A DNA stretch of 46,936 bases from Candidatus Omnitrophota bacterium. Lineage in GTDB: Bacteria; Omnitrophota; Gorgyraeia; 2-01-FULL-45-10. The stretch covers positions 70,385 to 117,320 of the forward strand of contig PLNN01000017.1 of assembly GCA_003142795.1 (NCBI GenBank), in the 5' to 3' direction. Of this stretch, positions 34,792 through 42,369 are shown piece by piece. The translations under genes and the position numbers were made by a program. Under the pieces are notes generated by a model. That model did no database searches. It saw only the letters and a list, made by a program, of their open reading frames with translations, and was not told the origin of the DNA. Every line of letters begins with the position of its first letter. Position 1 is the first letter of the stretch.

Positions 34792-35555
34792 GGAACCTGT
34801 ACCAGAATGTCACGTACTGGCTGTGCCAGCGCAAAGGTGGTCGCTATGATGTCGCCACCGAATGCTGTAGAGCGACCGCGCCAATCAGTAAACGAGCCAC
34901 CAGCTTCAGTGATGATCGGATAGAGCGCGGCGGAGTCCCACGGAGAGACGATGTCGTCGACCATGACATCGGCGCGTCCTGTAGCCAGAAGGAGATAGCC
35001 GTAGCAGTCGCCCCATGTTCGTGCTACCGCGGCCTTTGAAGCCAGCCGGCGCCACGCTGAAGCGCGATCGGGGCGTTCGGCGAATCGGTCGTCGGTGATA
35101 AGTACGGTGGACTCGGCGATGGTCGCGCGCTCCGACACGCTGCAGCGGGCGCCGTTCCAGAAACAACCCTCGCCCAGGGCAGCTACTATGGTTTCGGCAA
35201 TCGCGGGAAAGTACGCGCATCCAGCGAGAACTGAATCCCCCTCCGTTACGGCCACGAGCGTGCCCCAGAGCGGAACCGTTCTCACGAAGCTCTTGGTGCC
35301 GTCTATCGGATCGATAATCCAGCGTCTTGGAGCATCAGGCCGAACGTCGCCGAACTCCTCACCCAAAATCCCGTCATCCGGAAAGCGTTTCTCTATCCAC
35401 GCTCTTGCACGCTCCTCGGCTCCGCGGTCCGCGATGGTTACTGGCGAGCCGTCCTTCTTTACGTCGACTGTCAGCTCCTTTCCGTAATGCGACATCGCGA
35501 AGTTGCCGGCGAGCGATGCAACCTCGGCAATGGCGTCAAGGTATGATTCGGTCAC
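34788..35555 (-). CDS. hisN: Histidinol-phosphatase, inositol-monophosphatase type
   Basis: This 255-residue protein of the IMPase superfamily has the metal-site motifs [18 protein letters not shown] and [15 protein letters not shown]. Within this his operon hisB contains only the dehydratase domain, so this gene supplies the missing histidinol-phosphate phosphatase step, as HisN does in Actinobacteria. It overlaps hisF upstream and hisIE downstream by 4 bases each. Confidence 0.9.
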
Positions 35556-36316
35556 GCCGCGTTCCTCACCGGTAGGAGAGCCTCTCGCATGTGCGCCTTG
35601 ATCTCGGCGACGGTTGTGACGCGATCGTGCAGAATGCCAGCGACAAGCGCAGCGTCGGCGTTCCCCGATCGAATAGCGACGATCACATCGGCAGCTGATC
35701 CGGCTCCGCCAGAGGCAATGACAGGCACGTCGACCGCATCAGAAACGGCGCGTGTCAGATCGATGTCGTAACCGTCGCGAGACCCATCGCGATCGACGCT
35801 GGTGAGCAGGATCTCCCCTGCTCCGCGACTCACGCACTCCCGCGCCCAGGCGATAGCGTCCAGATCCGTCGCGGTTTTGCCACCGTGGGTGAAGACTCGC
35901 CACGAGCCTTCAATCAACTTTGCATCGATGCTAGACACGACGCATTGAGCGCCGAACATGGCGGCGGCATCGCTCAGTACTTCGGGCCGAAGCACAGCAG
36001 CCGAATTGATGGCCACCTTGTCGGCGCCGGCGCGCAACACGCGCGCGACGTCATCGGCAGTACGCACGCCCCCACCAATGGTGAGCGGGATAAATAGCCG
36101 TTCGGCGGTCCTCTGCGCGACATCCAGCAGAGTGCCGCGCTCCTCGCTCGTCGCAGATATATCGAGGAAGACTATCTCGTCCGCGCCTTCGGCTTCATAT
36201 CGTGCGGCGAGCTCCACGGGATCGCCAACATCGCGCAGATCTACGAAGCGCGTGCCCTTCACCACGCGGCCGCCCTTTACGTCCAGGCATACGATAAGCC
36301 GGCGCGTGAGTGTCAC
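35552..36316 (-). CDS. hisF: Imidazole glycerol phosphate synthase cyclase subunit HisF
   Basis: HisF is the TIM-barrel synthase half, which uses ammonia from HisH to make IGP and AICAR. Catalytic Asp is in [16 protein letters not shown], the second in [14 protein letters not shown]; phosphate-binding loops are PLTIGGGVR and [12 protein letters not shown]. 254 residues, normal. It overlaps hisB and hisN by 4 bases. Confidence 0.97.
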
Positions 36317-36864
36317 TTCACCTTCAGTGATACGGGCCCTTTGGTGCTGAATACAGCACCACCGCCCGTGTCGTGCATGGCGTCGCGGATGGCCAGACCC
36401 AATGCCTTGAAAGCAGCTTCCACGATGTGATGCCGGTCAATCCCCCGCAGCACGCGAAGATGCACTGTTGCCTTCGCATTGTCAGCGAACGAGCGCATCC
36501 AGTGGTCGTACAGGTCGCTCGGCAACGGTCCGCGATAGAAGGGTCGGCCACCCATATCGACGCACGCCTGCACGAGTGCCTCGTCCATTGGGATCGTGCG
36601 CTCACCATAACGCGCGGCTGATTGGCTGATCACCTCGCCAACAGCCGCGCCCATCGCGATCGCGACATCCTCGATTGTGTGATGTCTGAGATCACCTTCC
36701 GCGCGGAGCATCATGTCGAGACCGGCGTAGCGGGCAAACGTAACCATCATGTGATCCAGGAATGGGACTCCGGTTGTGATGTCGCCCTTCCCTTCTCCAC
36801 GCTGAAGCTCGAGCCGGATCTTTGTCTCACGTGTCACGCGTTCGATCACGCTCTTGTCACTCAT
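36313..36864 (-). CDS. hisB: Imidazoleglycerol-phosphate dehydratase HisB
   Basis: This monofunctional dehydratase converts IGP to imidazole acetol phosphate. Metal-binding repeats are visible as GVPFLDHMM with [14 protein letters not shown], and [18 protein letters not shown] 36864 is chosen because GGAG lies 8 bases upstream; the frame opens at 36903 inside hisA. 183 residues from this start, without the phosphatase domain seen in E. coli HisB. Confidence 0.95.
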
Positions 36865-36880
36865 GCAGGATTCTCCGTGG

Positions 36881-37594
36881 TCATTCCGCAAATTCCTCAG
36901 CAACGACGGCTGGCTCCAGCGCTCCGGTGTAGAGCGCCATGCCTATTACGACTGACGCGACTCCGCGGTCCTGGAGTGCACGCAGGTCACCAATTGTCCC
37001 GATGCCACCGCTGGCGCACACCGGATGCTCGCTCTCCTCCACCACATCTTCCATGAGCGGAAGATCGGTCCCTTCCATGAGCCCTTCCTTGTGCACCGCC
37101 GTAACCATCACGCCGGCCAGCGGCAGTGCATTGAGTTCCTCTATCAGATCCAGTATGTAGCGATCCGAAATACGCGCCCATCCACGCGTGAGTACATGGC
37201 GGTCGCGCACGTCGGCCGCAACGATCAGGGTGCCGGGAAATGCTTCCGCCATATCTCCGAGCCAGTTGGGACTCTCCACCGCCTTTGTGCCGAGCACGAT
37301 ACGTTGCGCGCCGTCACGAAGAAGCGCCTCGATCCGCTCCTCATCGCGGACGCCGCCACCTACCTGAGCCTCCATGGAAGTGGCACGTAGCACCTGCCGT
37401 ATGGTTTCAGCGTTGCTCCCGCGGCCGGTAGCAGCGTCGAGATCCACGATGTGTACACGACGAAAGCCGGCATAGTCCCAGCGATGCGCCACACCAGGCG
37501 GATCATCGAGCCGAACCTGCTCGGCGTCGTATGATCCACCGACCAGCTGCACGCATGCGGCTTCGCGAATGTCTATCGCTGGTATCGCAATCAT
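36881..37594 (-). CDS. hisA: Phosphoribosylformimino-5-aminoimidazole carboxamide ribotide isomerase HisA
   Basis: HisA is the TIM-barrel isomerase converting ProFAR to PRFAR, the substrate of HisHF. The catalytic Asp is in IAIPAIDIREAACVQL; phosphate loops are VGGGVRDEERIEALL and VCASGGIGTIGDL. 237 residues. It overlaps hisH by 4 bases and ends 16 bases before hisB, the only non-overlapping joint in the operon. Confidence 0.95.
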   Translation of the reverse strand: MIAIPAIDIREAACVQLVGGSYDAEQVRLDDPPGVAHRWDYAGFRRVHIVDLDAATGRGSNAETIRQVLRATSMEAQVGGGVRDEERIEALLRDGAQRIVLGTKAVESPNWLGDMAEAFPGTLIVAADVRDRHVLTRGWARISDRYILDLIEELNALPLAGVMVTAVHKEGLMEGTDLPLMEDVVEESEHPVCASGGIGTIGDLRALQDRGVASVVIGMALYTGALEPAVVAEEFAE

Positions 37595-38196
37595 CGAATC
37601 ACACCGTGGACGAAGTCTCGTACGAAGCGAACTCCGGCACTGGAGCTCTTCTCCGGATGGAACTGCACACCGACCGCGTTGGCTATCGTCACCGCCGACG
37701 CAAAGCGATCGCGCTCGTGAGTGGTGTAGGCCACAACGCAGTCTTCGTTGTCAGGCTCGCATACATAGCTGTTTGCGAAATATGCCACTTCGGGAAGCGC
37801 TTCATCAAACGAGTCAACTTCATTCCATCCGATCTGCGGAATTCGCCGTGCTCTGAGTCTTCGCACGCGTCCGGGAATTACGCCAAGTCCGGCCGGTCCT
37901 CCTCCCGGCCCCTCTTCGCTCTCCTCGAACAACAGCTGCATGCCGAGGCAGATGCATAGAGTGGGGAGGCCCGCGAGGATTGCATCGCGCATGGGTCCGG
38001 CTCCGCTCGCAAGGCGAGCCGCGGCATTGCCGAATGCGCCGACACCCGGCAGCACTAGCGCGTCAGTAGCCAGTGCGGCGAGTGGATCGCGCTGTAGCCG
38101 GATCTCAACATTGTCACCGACATCGAGCGCCTTTGCCAGTGAATGCATGTTGCCGGCGCCGTAGTCGAAGATTGTGACAATCGTCTTCGCGCTCAC
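37591..38196 (-). CDS. hisH: Imidazole glycerol phosphate synthase glutaminase subunit HisH
   Basis: HisH is the class I glutaminase that feeds ammonia to HisF. The catalytic triad is visible: Cys in LPTLCICLGMQLLFE, and His plus Glu in VQFHPEKSS; PGVGAFG forms the oxyanion region. 201 residues. The gene overlaps hisC and hisA by 4 bases each. Confidence 0.96.
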   Translation of the reverse strand: MSAKTIVTIFDYGAGNMHSLAKALDVGDNVEIRLQRDPLAALATDALVLPGVGAFGNAAARLASGAGPMRDAILAGLPTLCICLGMQLLFEESEEGPGGGPAGLGVIPGRVRRLRARRIPQIGWNEVDSFDEALPEVAYFANSYVCEPDNEDCVVAYTTHERDRFASAVTIANAVGVQFHPEKSSSAGVRFVRDFVHGVIR

Positions 38197-39278
38197 CTGG
38201 CAACGCTCCCAAGCACATCAATGCATTGCTCCAGCATGTGCCACGGGCCAACTGATATGCGCAGCGCGTCGCCTATGTTCGGAAGCGAATTGAAAGGCCG
38301 AACCGCGATGCCATGATCGCGCAACCGGCGGTCCCACTCTGTCGCGTCGTTCACAGGCACCAGTATAAAATTACTGTCGCTTGGCATTGGTGCGAGACCG
38401 ATTGCTACGAGCGCGCGAGCAAGCCTGTCTCGGTTCGTTACTGCTTCCTGAACATGCTCCTCGACCCAGGTGCGGTCATATGTGAGCGCCGCTACAGCTG
38501 CGCGTTGAGCCAGTGCGTTCACCTTGTAGGGGCCGCGCGATTTCTCTATTTCCGCGACGACAGCCGGATCGCCTATCGCGTAGCCCACGCGTAGCCCGGC
38601 CAGGCCAAATGCCTTGGAGAGCGTACGAGTTATCACGACATGAGGATAACGAGCTAGCAGATCAAGGCAGTTCCACGATGCGAACTCAGCGTACGCTTCG
38701 TCGATTACCACGATGCCGCTCACACTCGATATCACCTGCTCGATCGCCGCGCGCGTGAAGGACGCACCAGTTGGATTGTTCGGAGAGCACAGGTAGCTAA
38801 TTGTAGCGTTCGCCGAAACGTATCCGTTCACGTCCGCATCATTGGATGAAGTGAGCGGGATGGGTATGCTAACGAGCCCGTTCATCTGAGCGAAGATTGG
38901 AATCATCGCGAACGACGGATCCGGATACGCGACAGTATCGCCGGCTTCCCCGAATGCACGGATCGTGGAGTCCAGTATATCGTCCGATCCGCAGCCTGTC
39001 ACCACCATATCCGGAGTAAAGCCCACGTAATCGGCGATCGCCTGCTTCACGTCAGCCGCGTACAGCGCCGGGTACCGCGTGACCGTTGATAATGCAGCGT
39101 CAGCGATGGCGCGCAACGCAGCTGGCGGAACACCCCAGAGATTGGTGTTGTCGCTGAGATCGATCGCCGCTGGTGCGCGGTTCGGCGCGTAAAGGGAAAT
39201 GGATCGATATGTATCACGAGCCACGTCGAGAGCGACGCGACTGGCTGGCCCGAAATCACCAGAACGTGAGGGTTTCAT
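38193..39278 (-). CDS. hisC: Histidinol-phosphate aminotransferase HisC
   Basis: HisC is the PLP enzyme that forms histidinol phosphate. The PLP Lys lies in RTLSKAFGLAGLRVGYAIG; other fold type I motifs are TGCGSDDILD, YLCSPNNPTGASF, VVIDEAYAEF and the C-terminal LRISVG. The start is ATG 39278, overlapping the hisD stop as ATGA; the open frame to 39416 is non-homologous shadow. 361 residues. Confidence 0.95.
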   Translation of the reverse strand: MKPSRSGDFGPASRVALDVARDTYRSISLYAPNRAPAAIDLSDNTNLWGVPPAALRAIADAALSTVTRYPALYAADVKQAIADYVGFTPDMVVTGCGSDDILDSTIRAFGEAGDTVAYPDPSFAMIPIFAQMNGLVSIPIPLTSSNDADVNGYVSANATISYLCSPNNPTGASFTRAAIEQVISSVSGIVVIDEAYAEFASWNCLDLLARYPHVVITRTLSKAFGLAGLRVGYAIGDPAVVAEIEKSRGPYKVNALAQRAAVAALTYDRTWVEEHVQEAVTNRDRLARALVAIGLAPMPSDSNFILVPVNDATEWDRRLRDHGIAVRPFNSLPNIGDALRISVGPWHMLEQCIDVLGSVAR

Positions 39279-40603
39279 GACTGACGCACTCCCGTTGAGG
39301 CCCATTGACGAGCCGCTGCTGCGTGTGCTGGAAGTCCTTCGGCATCCGCGAAAATTCCCACGTCCTGCGCCAACCGATCTGCGGCTCCGGCGTCTATCAC
39401 CTGGTAGGTAGTCCATCGAATGAAGTCGAGTACGGAGAGGCCGGAGTACGAGCGCGCGAGACCGCCGGTAGGAAGAACGTGGTTGGCTCCGGTCATGTAA
39501 TCGCCGAACGCGACAGAGCTGTGCTCACCGACGAATATCGTTCCAGCATTGCGGAAGCGCGGAAGCAGATCGCCCGCGCGAGCCATGGCGAGCAGAAGGT
39601 GTTCGGGCGCGAATTCGTTGGCGAAGGTAATGGCCTGCTCCACGTCAATCGCCCACAGTACGGCTCCGCGGCTGCGCAATGATTCCTCGATGATGTCGCG
39701 ACGTTGCTGCGACGGCAATGCGTCAATTATGCAGCCGAGAATACTTTCGGCGACGGCCTGACCGATCGCGATCACAACAGCTACTGCCCGCGGGTCGTGC
39801 TCGGCCTGCGCGAGTACCTCGCGCATCACGACGTCTGGATCAGTGCTCGAGTCGGCGACGACCAGCAGCTCGCTGGGGCCGGCCGGAGAGTCTATCGCAA
39901 CAGCACTTGCGACCTGAAGTTTGGCCTCCGCCACATACGCGTTACCAGGCCCCACGATCCGATCGACCCTCGGCACGCTCTCAGTTCCGTACGCCATCGC
40001 AGCGATCGCGCCGGCACCTCCGATGGCGAATACTCGGTCGACGCCGGCAAGCTCAGCGGCCGCAAGAACGACCTGCGACGGTAATCCCAATGGTCCTGGC
40101 GGTGAACACAGCACTATCTCCCGAACGCCAGCCACGCGCGCAGGCACGGCTCCCATCAGTACGCTACTCGGATACGCGGCTCGGCCTCCGGGGGCATAGA
40201 CCCCTACTCTGTCGAGCGGATCAGGCCGCCGTCCCACTACGATTCCGAGCTCCGGGGTCGCTTCCGTGGACGTGGGCAGGAAAGCCCGCTGTACGGATTC
40301 GATGTTATGGATGGCGCGCTCAAGAGCACGGAGGAGCTTCCTGTCGAGCGAGTCGACGGCTGCCCTGCATGCCTCCCGCGGTACCTCCAGGCGTTCCAAT
40401 TCCACCCGATCGAACCGGAGTGCCATGTCCCTTAGCGCCAGGTCGCCCCGCTGCCTGACATCGATGATCAGCTTGGAAGTCGTGATGCTGACTGATTCAT
40501 CATCGGAAGCTGAGCGCGCCAGGAGTGCGTTTCTCCGGGTAATCGTTAGGCTGTCAATACTCTGGGTAAGAAATAGCTTCTCTGAGTAACCATTTCGGCT
40601 CAT
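39275..40603 (-). CDS. hisD: Histidinol dehydrogenase HisD
   Basis: HisD oxidises histidinol to histidine in two NAD-dependent steps. Conserved stretches are RVGVYAPGGRAAYPSSVLM, RIVGPGNAYVAEAK, SPAGPSELLVVAD, AQAEHDPRA with Zn-binding Gln/His, the EFAPEHLLL catalytic Glu/His and NAGTIFVGEHSSVAFGDY split at the family G-D-Y. 442 residues, normal for the enzyme. It overlaps hisG by ATGA and hisC by ATGA. Confidence 0.97.
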   Translation of the reverse strand: MSRNGYSEKLFLTQSIDSLTITRRNALLARSASDDESVSITTSKLIIDVRQRGDLALRDMALRFDRVELERLEVPREACRAAVDSLDRKLLRALERAIHNIESVQRAFLPTSTEATPELGIVVGRRPDPLDRVGVYAPGGRAAYPSSVLMGAVPARVAGVREIVLCSPPGPLGLPSQVVLAAAELAGVDRVFAIGGAGAIAAMAYGTESVPRVDRIVGPGNAYVAEAKLQVASAVAIDSPAGPSELLVVADSSTDPDVVMREVLAQAEHDPRAVAVVIAIGQAVAESILGCIIDALPSQQRRDIIEESLRSRGAVLWAIDVEQAITFANEFAPEHLLLAMARAGDLLPRFRNAGTIFVGEHSSVAFGDYMTGANHVLPTGGLARSYSGLSVLDFIRWTTYQVIDAGAADRLAQDVGIFADAEGLPAHAAAARQWASTGVRQS

Positions 40604-41535
40604 CGCATCAACCTCTCGATGCGGATCACGAGGATGCCTTCTCCACCGATCGCCTTGAGGTCCGCGATAGTTCGATATATCGCGGACGCTGCCACAACGG
40701 CATGCACGGCCACGTGCTTTCCACCGTCGAGGACGTCGATTACAGTTGGACCATTCAAGCCCGGAAGGATCTGACGGACGTCCTGGAGGCGATCTCGAGG
40801 GACATTCGCCATCAGGTAACGTTGGCCGCGCGCGGAGGTGACGGACTCAAGCGCTGTCGAGAGCTCCTGGAGAGCGGTTTCCTTGGCGGTCGGCCAGCCG
40901 GATCTGTTCCTGGCAACGACCAACTGAGCGGTGGACCACATGACTGTGCCAATCTCACGAAGTCCGTTGGTCTTGAGGGTCGAACCTGTCGAGACCAGAT
41001 CAACTATCACGTCCGCGATGCCCAGGTGAGGTGCGATCTCCGCGGCGCCGGAAATGGGTACTATCTCAATGTCCTGCCGAGCGTCCTCGAAGAAACGCGC
41101 GGTGATATTGGGGAATGCTGTTGCCACTCTGGTGCGTGGCGGGAGTTGGTCAACCGCGTGGAACCCACTCTCATCACGGGCTGCCACGGCAAGGCGGCAT
41201 CGGCCGAAGCCCAGATCGAGCCGGCTAACGATCTCGCGCCGGCTTTCAGCCACGAGATCCAGGCCGGTGACGCCTGCGTCGGCGGCACCGTCGGAGACAA
41301 ATTCCGGGATGTCCTGCGCCCTTACGAAGATTGCCTCGAACTCGCCGCCGAGTGCCGCCTTTAGGGCACGGTCACTCAGAGCGCGGACCTCCAGGCCCGC
41401 GTCATTGAAGAGGTCACGCGTGTCCTGAGCCAGGCGTCCCTTGTTCGGGAGCGCGATGCGGAGAAGTGGCGCTGCCGTAGTACCGGCCGGGCTGAGTATG
41501 CGGGGCTGTGGAAGCTGAGGATCTACGGGGTTCAT
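40600..41535 (-). CDS. hisG: ATP phosphoribosyltransferase HisG, long form
   Basis: HisG catalyses the committed step, joining PRPP to ATP. The catalytic part has RIALPNKGRLAQDT, DAGVTGLDLV and the PRPP-loop region VDLVSTGSTLKTNGL. The C-terminal 80 residues (YLMANVPRDRLQDVRQILPGLNGPTV, VAASAIYRTIADLKAIGGEGILV) form the regulatory ACT-like domain that binds histidine, so no hisZ is needed. 311 residues including a 25-residue Pro-rich lead. It is the first structural gene and lies 111 bases downstream of the His leader peptide stop, past the terminator. Confidence 0.96.
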   Translation of the reverse strand: MNPVDPQLPQPRILSPAGTTAAPLLRIALPNKGRLAQDTRDLFNDAGLEVRALSDRALKAALGGEFEAIFVRAQDIPEFVSDGAADAGVTGLDLVAESRREIVSRLDLGFGRCRLAVAARDESGFHAVDQLPPRTRVATAFPNITARFFEDARQDIEIVPISGAAEIAPHLGIADVIVDLVSTGSTLKTNGLREIGTVMWSTAQLVVARNRSGWPTAKETALQELSTALESVTSARGQRYLMANVPRDRLQDVRQILPGLNGPTVIDVLDGGKHVAVHAVVAASAIYRTIADLKAIGGEGILVIRIERLMR

Positions 41536-41585: not shown

Positions 41586-41613
41586 AAAAAAGGCCCGTCC
41601 AGATGGACGGGCC
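41586..41613 (-). terminator. Intrinsic terminator of the his attenuator
   Basis: On the minus strand GGCCCGTCC, a 4-base loop (ATCT) and GGACGGGCC form a perfect 9-bp GC stem followed by six T residues. It lies between the His-rich leader ORF and hisG. The 5' arm can instead pair with an earlier GACGGGCC segment at 41667-41674 inside the leader ORF, giving an antiterminator. The 306 bases between hisG and the cupredoxin gene are therefore all regulatory. Confidence 0.9.
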
Positions 41614-41646
41614 CGGGAGTGCACGGATGATTGGCCGATCAGCCCA

Positions 41647-41721
41647 TCACGTGCGACAGCTTCCCCGGCCCGTCAGGACATGGAGATGATGCAGCGCGTG
41701 GTGGGTTGCTATGCGAGCCAT
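41647..41721 (-). CDS. hisL: His operon leader peptide
   Basis: This 24-codon ORF starts MARIAT and contains HHALHHLH, five His codons within eight, then ends in TGA. It is followed 33 bases later by the terminator hairpin. Ribosome stalling at the His codons under histidine shortage would leave the downstream GACGGGCC segment (41667-41674), located just past the His run, free to form the antiterminator. I see no Shine-Dalgarno site; the predicted transcript begins almost at the ATG, so translation may be leaderless. Confidence 0.85.
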   Translation of the reverse strand: MARIATHHALHHLHVLTGRGSCRT

Positions 41722-41727
41722 TCATTG

Positions 41728-41756
41728 AATGTGATAGGAGTGAGTTCTGCTGTCAA
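41728..41756 (-). promoter_or_regulatory. Candidate promoter of the his operon
   Basis: Minus-strand TTGACA (41751-41756), a 17-base spacer and CACATT (41728-41733; 3 of 6 matches). The start point would be about 41722-41724, at the hisL ATG. The -35 is perfect, the -10 poor. Confidence 0.45.
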
Positions 41757-41841: not shown

Positions 41842-42369
41842 ATGCGGTATTTCGGTTTTACTGCTATAGCGGCCAGCGCTCTGATGCTTGCCGCGTGCGG
41901 CGGCGGCGAAAAGGCTGCCGGCACAACGGCTGCTGCGACGACCCCGGCGACTGATACAACGGCTGCCGCTACGGCGGCTACGGGATCGACTGCAGCGCCA
42001 GCAGTTGGCGCGGTTGCGGCCGCCCCGGTTACGGGGACGATCCACGAAGTGAAGATGATCGGCGACGCGAAAGGCTATCGTTTTGAGCCTGCGACGATCA
42101 CGATCAAGGAAGGCGACGGGATCAAGTACATCAACATCAGCGGTGGCCCGCACGATGTCGCATTCGATCCGGCCGCGATTCCAGCCGCTGTGAAGCCGCA
42201 GCTCTCGGCGAACATGCCGAACCAGATGAGTGATCTTGCTGGCCCGCTCCTGATTCAGCCGAACGCAGACTACACGATCTCGTTCGCGAAGATTCCGGCA
42301 GGGACGTACGAGGCGCACTGCACGCCGCACCTCGCAATGAACATGAAGCAGACGATCACGGTTCAGTAG
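41842..42369 (+). CDS. Cupredoxin (plastocyanin/amicyanin-like) lipoprotein
   Basis: The lipobox LAAC (Cys19) directs lipidation. Residues 20-65 are an Ala/Thr linker, and 66-175 form a cupredoxin barrel. Type 1 copper ligands are His104 (GGPHDVAFD), Cys160 and His163 (AHCTPH) and Met166 or Met168. It is thus a membrane-anchored periplasmic electron carrier. TAGGAG lies upstream of ATG 41842, and a strong hairpin follows the stop, so it is probably monocistronic. Its partner in respiration is not visible here. Confidence 0.9.
   Translation: MRYFGFTAIAASALMLAACGGGEKAAGTTAAATTPATDTTAAATAATGSTAAPAVGAVAAAPVTGTIHEVKMIGDAKGYRFEPATITIKEGDGIKYINISGGPHDVAFDPAAIPAAVKPQLSANMPNQMSDLAGPLLIQPNADYTISFAKIPAGTYEAHCTPHLAMNMKQTITVQ

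Follow-up and report, generated by a model that had tools for sequence, protein, structure and literature searches.

A probable ribosome-mediated attenuator of the his operon, with a predicted leaderless start, in Gemmatimonadota, Myxococcota and Eisenbacteria

The his operon of the window, the term used here for the whole 46,936-nucleotide stretch of DNA that was analysed, is preceded by a short open reading frame rich in His codons and by a terminator, raising the question of whether its transcription is attenuated by a ribosome translating the leader. A preliminary description of the sequence had claimed a complete and correctly ordered set of attenuator parts ahead of the operon, leaving the strand unstated. 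All parts were located on the minus strand (Table 1), and the order leader ORF, His codons, arm 2, terminator and hisGDCHABF was confirmed. Also confirmed were the 24-codon leader containing HHALHHLH, the 9-bp GC terminator with its six T residues, and a segment after the His codons that duplicates the 3' arm of the terminator and is able to pair with the 5' arm. The terminator (41614-41591) has a 9-bp stem GGCCCGTCC/GGACGGGCC, or 10 pairs counting an outer G-T, and a 4-nt loop; read 5' to 3' it is GGGCCCGTCC-ATCT-GGACGGGCCT followed by the six-T tract to 41586. The codons after the His run are GTC CTG ACG GGC CGG, and arm 2 (GACGGGCC) lies within the last four of them, is a repeat of the terminator 3' arm and the complement of the 5' arm, and could extend its pairing with arm 3 by GGGG located just 3' of it. 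A spacer of 32 nt separates the leader stop codon from the terminator, and 6 nt separate the -10 CACATT from the leader ATG at 41721. The upper limit given in the preliminary description, 41756, coincides with the start of a perfect TTGACA.

Table 1. Features of the his locus in the window (positions are those of the window).
Feature	Position	Strand	Description	Basis
Operon hisG, hisD, hisC, hisH, hisA, hisB, hisF	35552..41535	-		NCBIfam and ORF coordinates
hisG	41535-40600	-	First gene of the operon	
Promoter	41728..41756	-	-35 TTGACA 41756-41751, 17-bp spacer, weak -10 CACATT 41733-41728	Sequence and near relatives
Leader ORF hisL	41721-41647	-	24 codons plus stop, MARIATHHALHHLHVLTGRGSCRT*	Sequence, His-rich, wobble-type variation across relatives
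His control codons	41680..41703	-	HHALHHLH, codons 7-14, five His	
Arm 2 (putative antiterminator arm)	41667..41674	-	GACGGGCC, inside the leader ORF directly after the His codons	Swap test and shuffles
Arm 3 (terminator 5' arm)	41605..41614	-	GGGCCCGTCC; partner of either arm 2 or arm 4	
Arm 4 (terminator 3' arm) and T6 tract	41586..41600	-	GGACGGGCC, T6 at 41591-41586	Stem covariation in relatives
Plastocyanin/amicyanin-type copper domain, lipoprotein-like protein	41842-42369	+	Divergent from the his leader, with a 120-nt intergenic region in common	

The products of hisG, hisD, hisC, hisH and hisF scored above the NCBIfam cut-offs, while HisA and HisB were best-family matches below the curated cut-off. 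The hisG start lies approximately 110 nt after the leader stop. The called start of HisG adds approximately 23 residues (41535-41467, minus strand) that align poorly with other HisG sequences, and the true start may be further downstream. Since the only other neighbour of the leader is divergent, the terminator of the window can end only transcripts begun at this leader.

Over 1,690 compared bases the window matches, without a single difference, a contig of palsa_1236, a Gemmatimonadetes metagenome-assembled genome (PLEG01000133.1), which places the window in the Gemmatimonadota and bears out the earlier view of a Gemmatimonadota-like genome. The source assembly (G000, with the window on contig C54) holds a second HisG on contig C55 that is approximately 30% identical to that of the window, and the taxonomic relatives of this assembly have only HisG of the second kind. 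The contig of the window seems, from these sequence comparisons, to be mis-binned. The kin of the source assembly were rejected as comparison relatives, their HisG being approximately 30% identical to that of the window, and named Gemmatimonadota genomes were used instead.

Within the window, hisL was the only ORF of 10-50 codons in which a stretch of eight codons includes five or more His; second-order Markov simulations gave a mean of 0.05 such ORFs per window. The leader RNA folds better than 200 dinucleotide shuffles (z = -3.8), and the pairing of the post-His segment with the terminator 5' arm was -27.9 kcal/mol versus a shuffle mean of -17.1 (p = 0.01). The decisive evidence for an attenuator is comparative.

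A HisG scan of species genomes yielded 80 loci. Where the upstream sequence was sufficient, nearly all showed the order seen in the window, a His run followed by a terminator of the GGCCCGTCC...GGACGGGCC type, and 59 of the loci served to build a covariance model, R1. When 14 genomes reached through these loci were searched whole with R1, the top match of each scored 42-118 bits and the next matches listed scored at most 27.5 bits. Among 297 Gemmatimonadota genomes sampled, 120 contained a hisG at least 54% identical to that of the window, and an R1 match was found just upstream of hisG in 94 of the 120. Full-length upstream regions were inspected for 19 of the 26 genomes with no match: the His run and terminator were present, merely divergent, in 11, a degenerate leader with two His preceded a conserved terminator in one (L197), and the element was absent in seven, five of them of one lineage together with G350 and G144. 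A search for relatives having an intact his operon and lacking the His codons or the pairing returned seven, set against 94 genomes with the element by model and the 11 recognized on inspection. In the lineage with no leader (L199-L203) hisG is 54-55% identical to that of the window and lies approximately 35 nt behind another gene; by eye, this gene resembles an anti-sigma-factor antagonist (STAS-like). As regards the other seven of the 26, two upstream regions were cut by a contig end with the terminator still visible (L184 and L193), three hisG genes were at a contig edge and two were left out.

Leaders were also present in deeper relatives with HisG identities of 34-41% (L214-L217), their arms being quite different. 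R1 matches were obtained in 71 of 179 Myxococcota genomes, with the element carried by Myxococcus xanthus (L078), and in 7 of the 44 genomes from the phylum Eisenbacteria. Judged by sequence, the same predicted switch recurs across Gemmatimonadota, Myxococcaceae and Eisenbacteria. The inspected members have four to seven His in nine codons, most commonly six, and in nearly every member the leader stop is followed, 20-53 nt on and ahead of hisG, by a terminator with a T tract. In one genome (G201) the leader occurs twice, before hisG and approximately 9.5 kb further on before a hisC-like gene (L204, G201:C210:21600-22800; L231), as if a split operon had kept one attenuator for each part. Another locus (L206, G248:C45) has a leader RHHHVHHGFQARGG and a CGCCGGCT terminator before a different, distant HisG-like gene; the search for an arm 2 at this locus gave nothing convincing, its own pairing being no better than shuffles. 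Matches to R1 of 27-40 bits located away from hisG (L205, L207, L208, L209, L211, L219 and L220) were rejected, there being no correctly ordered leader and terminator at these places.

The pattern of change among relatives was examined for the codons and for the arms. Over 119 leaders the His codons were CAT 365 times and CAC 334 times, with positions 1 and 2 (CA) nearly fixed and the third mixed. Gaps between the His run and arm 2 mostly measure three bases. The leader frame in which arm 2 begins is 0 in 71 cases, 1 in 27 and 2 in five, indicating that the RNA sequence and not the peptide is conserved there. The His codons and the arms are conserved, and the spacer between the leader stop and the terminator is not conserved in sequence. 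The terminator stem covaries in relatives above shuffles (four pairs, 19 cells). Column covariation between arms 2 and 3 was not significant in the main alignment because the arms are nearly invariant, and this pairing was assessed instead with shuffles and a swap test. For the 35 leaders with divergent arms, the own arm 2 and arm 3 paired at -22.5 kcal/mol versus -18.5 kcal/mol for swapped arms (permutation p = 2e-4), and own pairs were also stronger than shuffles; since the sequences are mutually related, the p-values of these comparisons are indicative. One relative (L235) shows a three-way change, GACAGGTC/GGCCTGTC/GACAGGCC, in which the leader codon change ACG to ACA is silent. A second clear three-way change is that of a deep relative (L214) with different arms, where the leader segment CCGGAATCGGAGGCGAGC copies the 3' arm and its loop except for one base. 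Both the His-rich ORFs and the compensatory changes that had been proposed as things to look for upstream of hisG were found, the pairing being maintained when the arms change.

The arrangement TTGA..-N16-18-TAnnnT was present in 61 of 103 non-redundant leaders, the spacing being 17 in 52, and in 58 of the 61 the -10 element ends 5-10 nt before the start codon; the corresponding frequency in shuffled upstream regions was 0.06% (null rate 0.0006). Most of the remaining leaders keep TTGAC with a weaker -10, as in the window, where CACATT is weak, does not conform to TAnnnT and was missed by a generic promoter scan. The arrangement TTGACA-N17-CACATT is common to the window and its near relatives L154 and L155. 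A Shine-Dalgarno-like motif was found in just 2 of 89 leaders. From the promoter spacing and the near absence of Shine-Dalgarno motifs, transcription is predicted to start no more than about 4 nt from the AUG, in the window at approximately 41721, the A of the leader ATG. The leader mRNA is thus probably leaderless.

From the anatomy of the element, its conservation and its compensatory pairing, which were observed directly, we infer a start site, ribosome stalling, termination and a histidine response as follows. The transcript would begin at the leader AUG or a few bases away from it, and its 5' end would then be loaded by a ribosome. When charged tRNA-His is scarce, the ribosome would stall on the His codons and leave arm 2 free to pair with arm 3 once arm 3 is made; with arm 3 taken, arm 4 would have no partner and RNA polymerase would continue into hisGDCHABF. 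When histidine is plentiful, the ribosome would cross arm 2 to the stop codon, making arm 2 unavailable as arm 3 emerges, and arm 3 would pair with arm 4 to end transcription at the T tract.

Folding in both conformations, as had been suggested, agreed in part with this scheme: the expected switch appeared in partial transcripts, but finished leaders mostly keep the terminator at equilibrium. The finished leader of the window, as free RNA, forms the terminator with a probability of 0.94. Placing a ribosome on the first His codon lowered this value to 0.50 and raised the upstream pairing of arm 3 from 0.05 to 0.43. For most members the terminator was dominant at equilibrium whatever the ribosome state, an appreciable shift on stalling being confined to the window and about 17% of members. 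As proof of switching, the equilibrium folds of finished leaders were accordingly rejected, failing as they do for most members, and partial transcripts were used instead. In partial transcripts ending just after arm 3, arms 2 and 3 paired in 118 of 118 leaders when the first or middle His codon was occupied by a ribosome. None of the 118 formed this pairing when the ribosome had reached the stop codon, and about half formed it with no ribosome. Since a control with the post-His region shuffled still scored some pairing in 79% of cases, at a lower mean (0.95 versus 1.48), the partial-transcript result is supportive and not decisive. The presence of the switch in partial transcripts but not at equilibrium for most members leads to the prediction that the decision is kinetic, being taken by arm 2 before arm 4 exists. 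The window is among those leaders pairing arms 2 and 3 with no ribosome present, so that basal read-through in the absence of translation may be appreciable.

The persistence of the terminator at equilibrium in nearly all ribosome states of most members is what would be expected of a constitutive intrinsic terminator beside a chance His-rich ORF, trimming read-through and sensing no histidine. That explanation is nevertheless very improbable: no upstream gene on the same strand needs a terminator, the His run with wobble-type variation and the arm 2 duplication are conserved in at least three phyla, a second copy precedes hisC in one genome (G201), and the number of such ORFs expected by chance is that given above for the simulated windows. 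The spacer that separates the leader stop from the terminator is long and structured, as might suit an RNA that senses a metabolite or tRNA (a riboswitch or T-box) or a leader bound by a protein, the ORF then being incidental. However, no T-box or riboswitch was matched in Rfam by the window or ten diverse relatives, even at permissive thresholds, and the spacer, unlike the His codons and arms, is unconserved in sequence, which leaves this reading scarcely credible. Equally hard to credit is that the leader works chiefly by reinitiation onto hisG or by translational coupling, and not by termination: an increase in translation by reinitiation has been proposed for leader peptides close to structural genes (PMC4833913), but a strong T-tract terminator intervenes in nearly every member and, in the window, hisG starts approximately 110 nt past the leader stop. 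Overall, it is highly probable that the element in the window attenuates transcription of the his operon by a ribosome-mediated mechanism coupled to translation of the leader.

The history of the element was considered with a quick hisG tree that is unrooted and has long branches and some doubtful labels. In this tree Myxococcota and Eisenbacteria are scattered among Gemmatimonadota, and the Gemmatimonadota label needs at least five changes. The tree suggests transfer of the his operon between phyla together with its attenuator, a suggestion that, given the missing root, the long branches and the doubtful labels, is not advanced as a claim. Three records titled Candidatus Kuenenia (L047), Planctomycetota (L105) and Comamonas (L086) contain hisG of the Gemmatimonadota or Myxococcus type with matching leaders, and may be mislabelled or mis-binned.

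No match at gathering level was found in Rfam for the window or ten diverse relatives; matches of the window to suhB, anti-hemB and rnk_pseudo, which stem from the terminator hairpin and fall far short of the gathering scores, were rejected. The His_leader family (RF00514, gathering score 49 bits) gave no match over the cut-off in any of 61 Gemmatimonadota genomes, while the E. coli control was found. Sub-threshold places were also rejected: a His run was missing from the best three, and the two whose surroundings were read completely had no his gene and look like ordinary terminators. No paper linking His leaders with Gemmatimonadota or Myxococcus was found in an open-access literature of 5.4 million papers, in keeping with the earlier remark that the system may be undescribed in Gemmatimonadota. 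Neither was an earlier report of a leaderless his leader peptide found in that literature, most subscription papers lying outside the search. The mechanism is classical ribosome-mediated attenuation and is not new; the RNA family and its taxonomic range appear undescribed. With less assurance than attaches to the attenuator itself, we favour the view that the element represents an undescribed family of leaderless his attenuators with three arms, in which the leader peptide starts at a 5'-AUG, a run of His codons follows and arm 2 is placed in the ORF. The family would be common to Gemmatimonadota, Myxococcota and Eisenbacteria, with arms that change together, and may have moved between phyla with the his operon.

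The results extend textbook his attenuation to phyla in which the regulation of amino-acid synthesis is little known, and supply a covariance model for an element missing from Rfam. Since the element is present in Myxococcus xanthus, attenuation from a leaderless start can be tested in a laboratory organism. The element also offers a case for asking whether attenuators travel with operons between phyla.

The his leader of E. coli forms a longer chain of alternative stems. Like the element described here, the leader of E. coli and Salmonella (RF00514) comprises a His-codon leader peptide, an intrinsic terminator and a competing antiterminator before the his operon, whereas here there is one three-arm switch, arm 2 is inside the ORF and the start is probably leaderless. 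Leaderless leader peptides are known for trpL of Sinorhizobium (S. meliloti) (PMC7298713) and for the leuL, trpL and ilvL attenuators of Streptomyces lividans (PMC8079986), and leaderless transcripts of Streptomyces have promoters with a TAnnnT -10 and a TTGACn -35 (PMC8079986). In these systems, as predicted here, the transcript begins at the leader AUG; however, they concern Trp, Leu or Ilv and not His, and their starts were mapped in RNA while that of the his leader is predicted from promoter spacing alone. The earlier statement that such systems are best known from Proteobacteria holds in that they are described there but is too narrow, since his leader peptides with a run of His codons, a terminator and an antiterminator have also been reported or predicted in Firmicutes, the lineages concerned being few and without control by HisR or a T-box (PMC9413887, PMC2965389). 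As described in those papers, the Firmicutes leaders resemble the present element in the His run and the terminator/antiterminator and belong to other phyla. Unlike in Firmicutes, where such leaders are reported from a few lineages, the element is found in most hisG-first operons of the Gemmatimonadota sampled.
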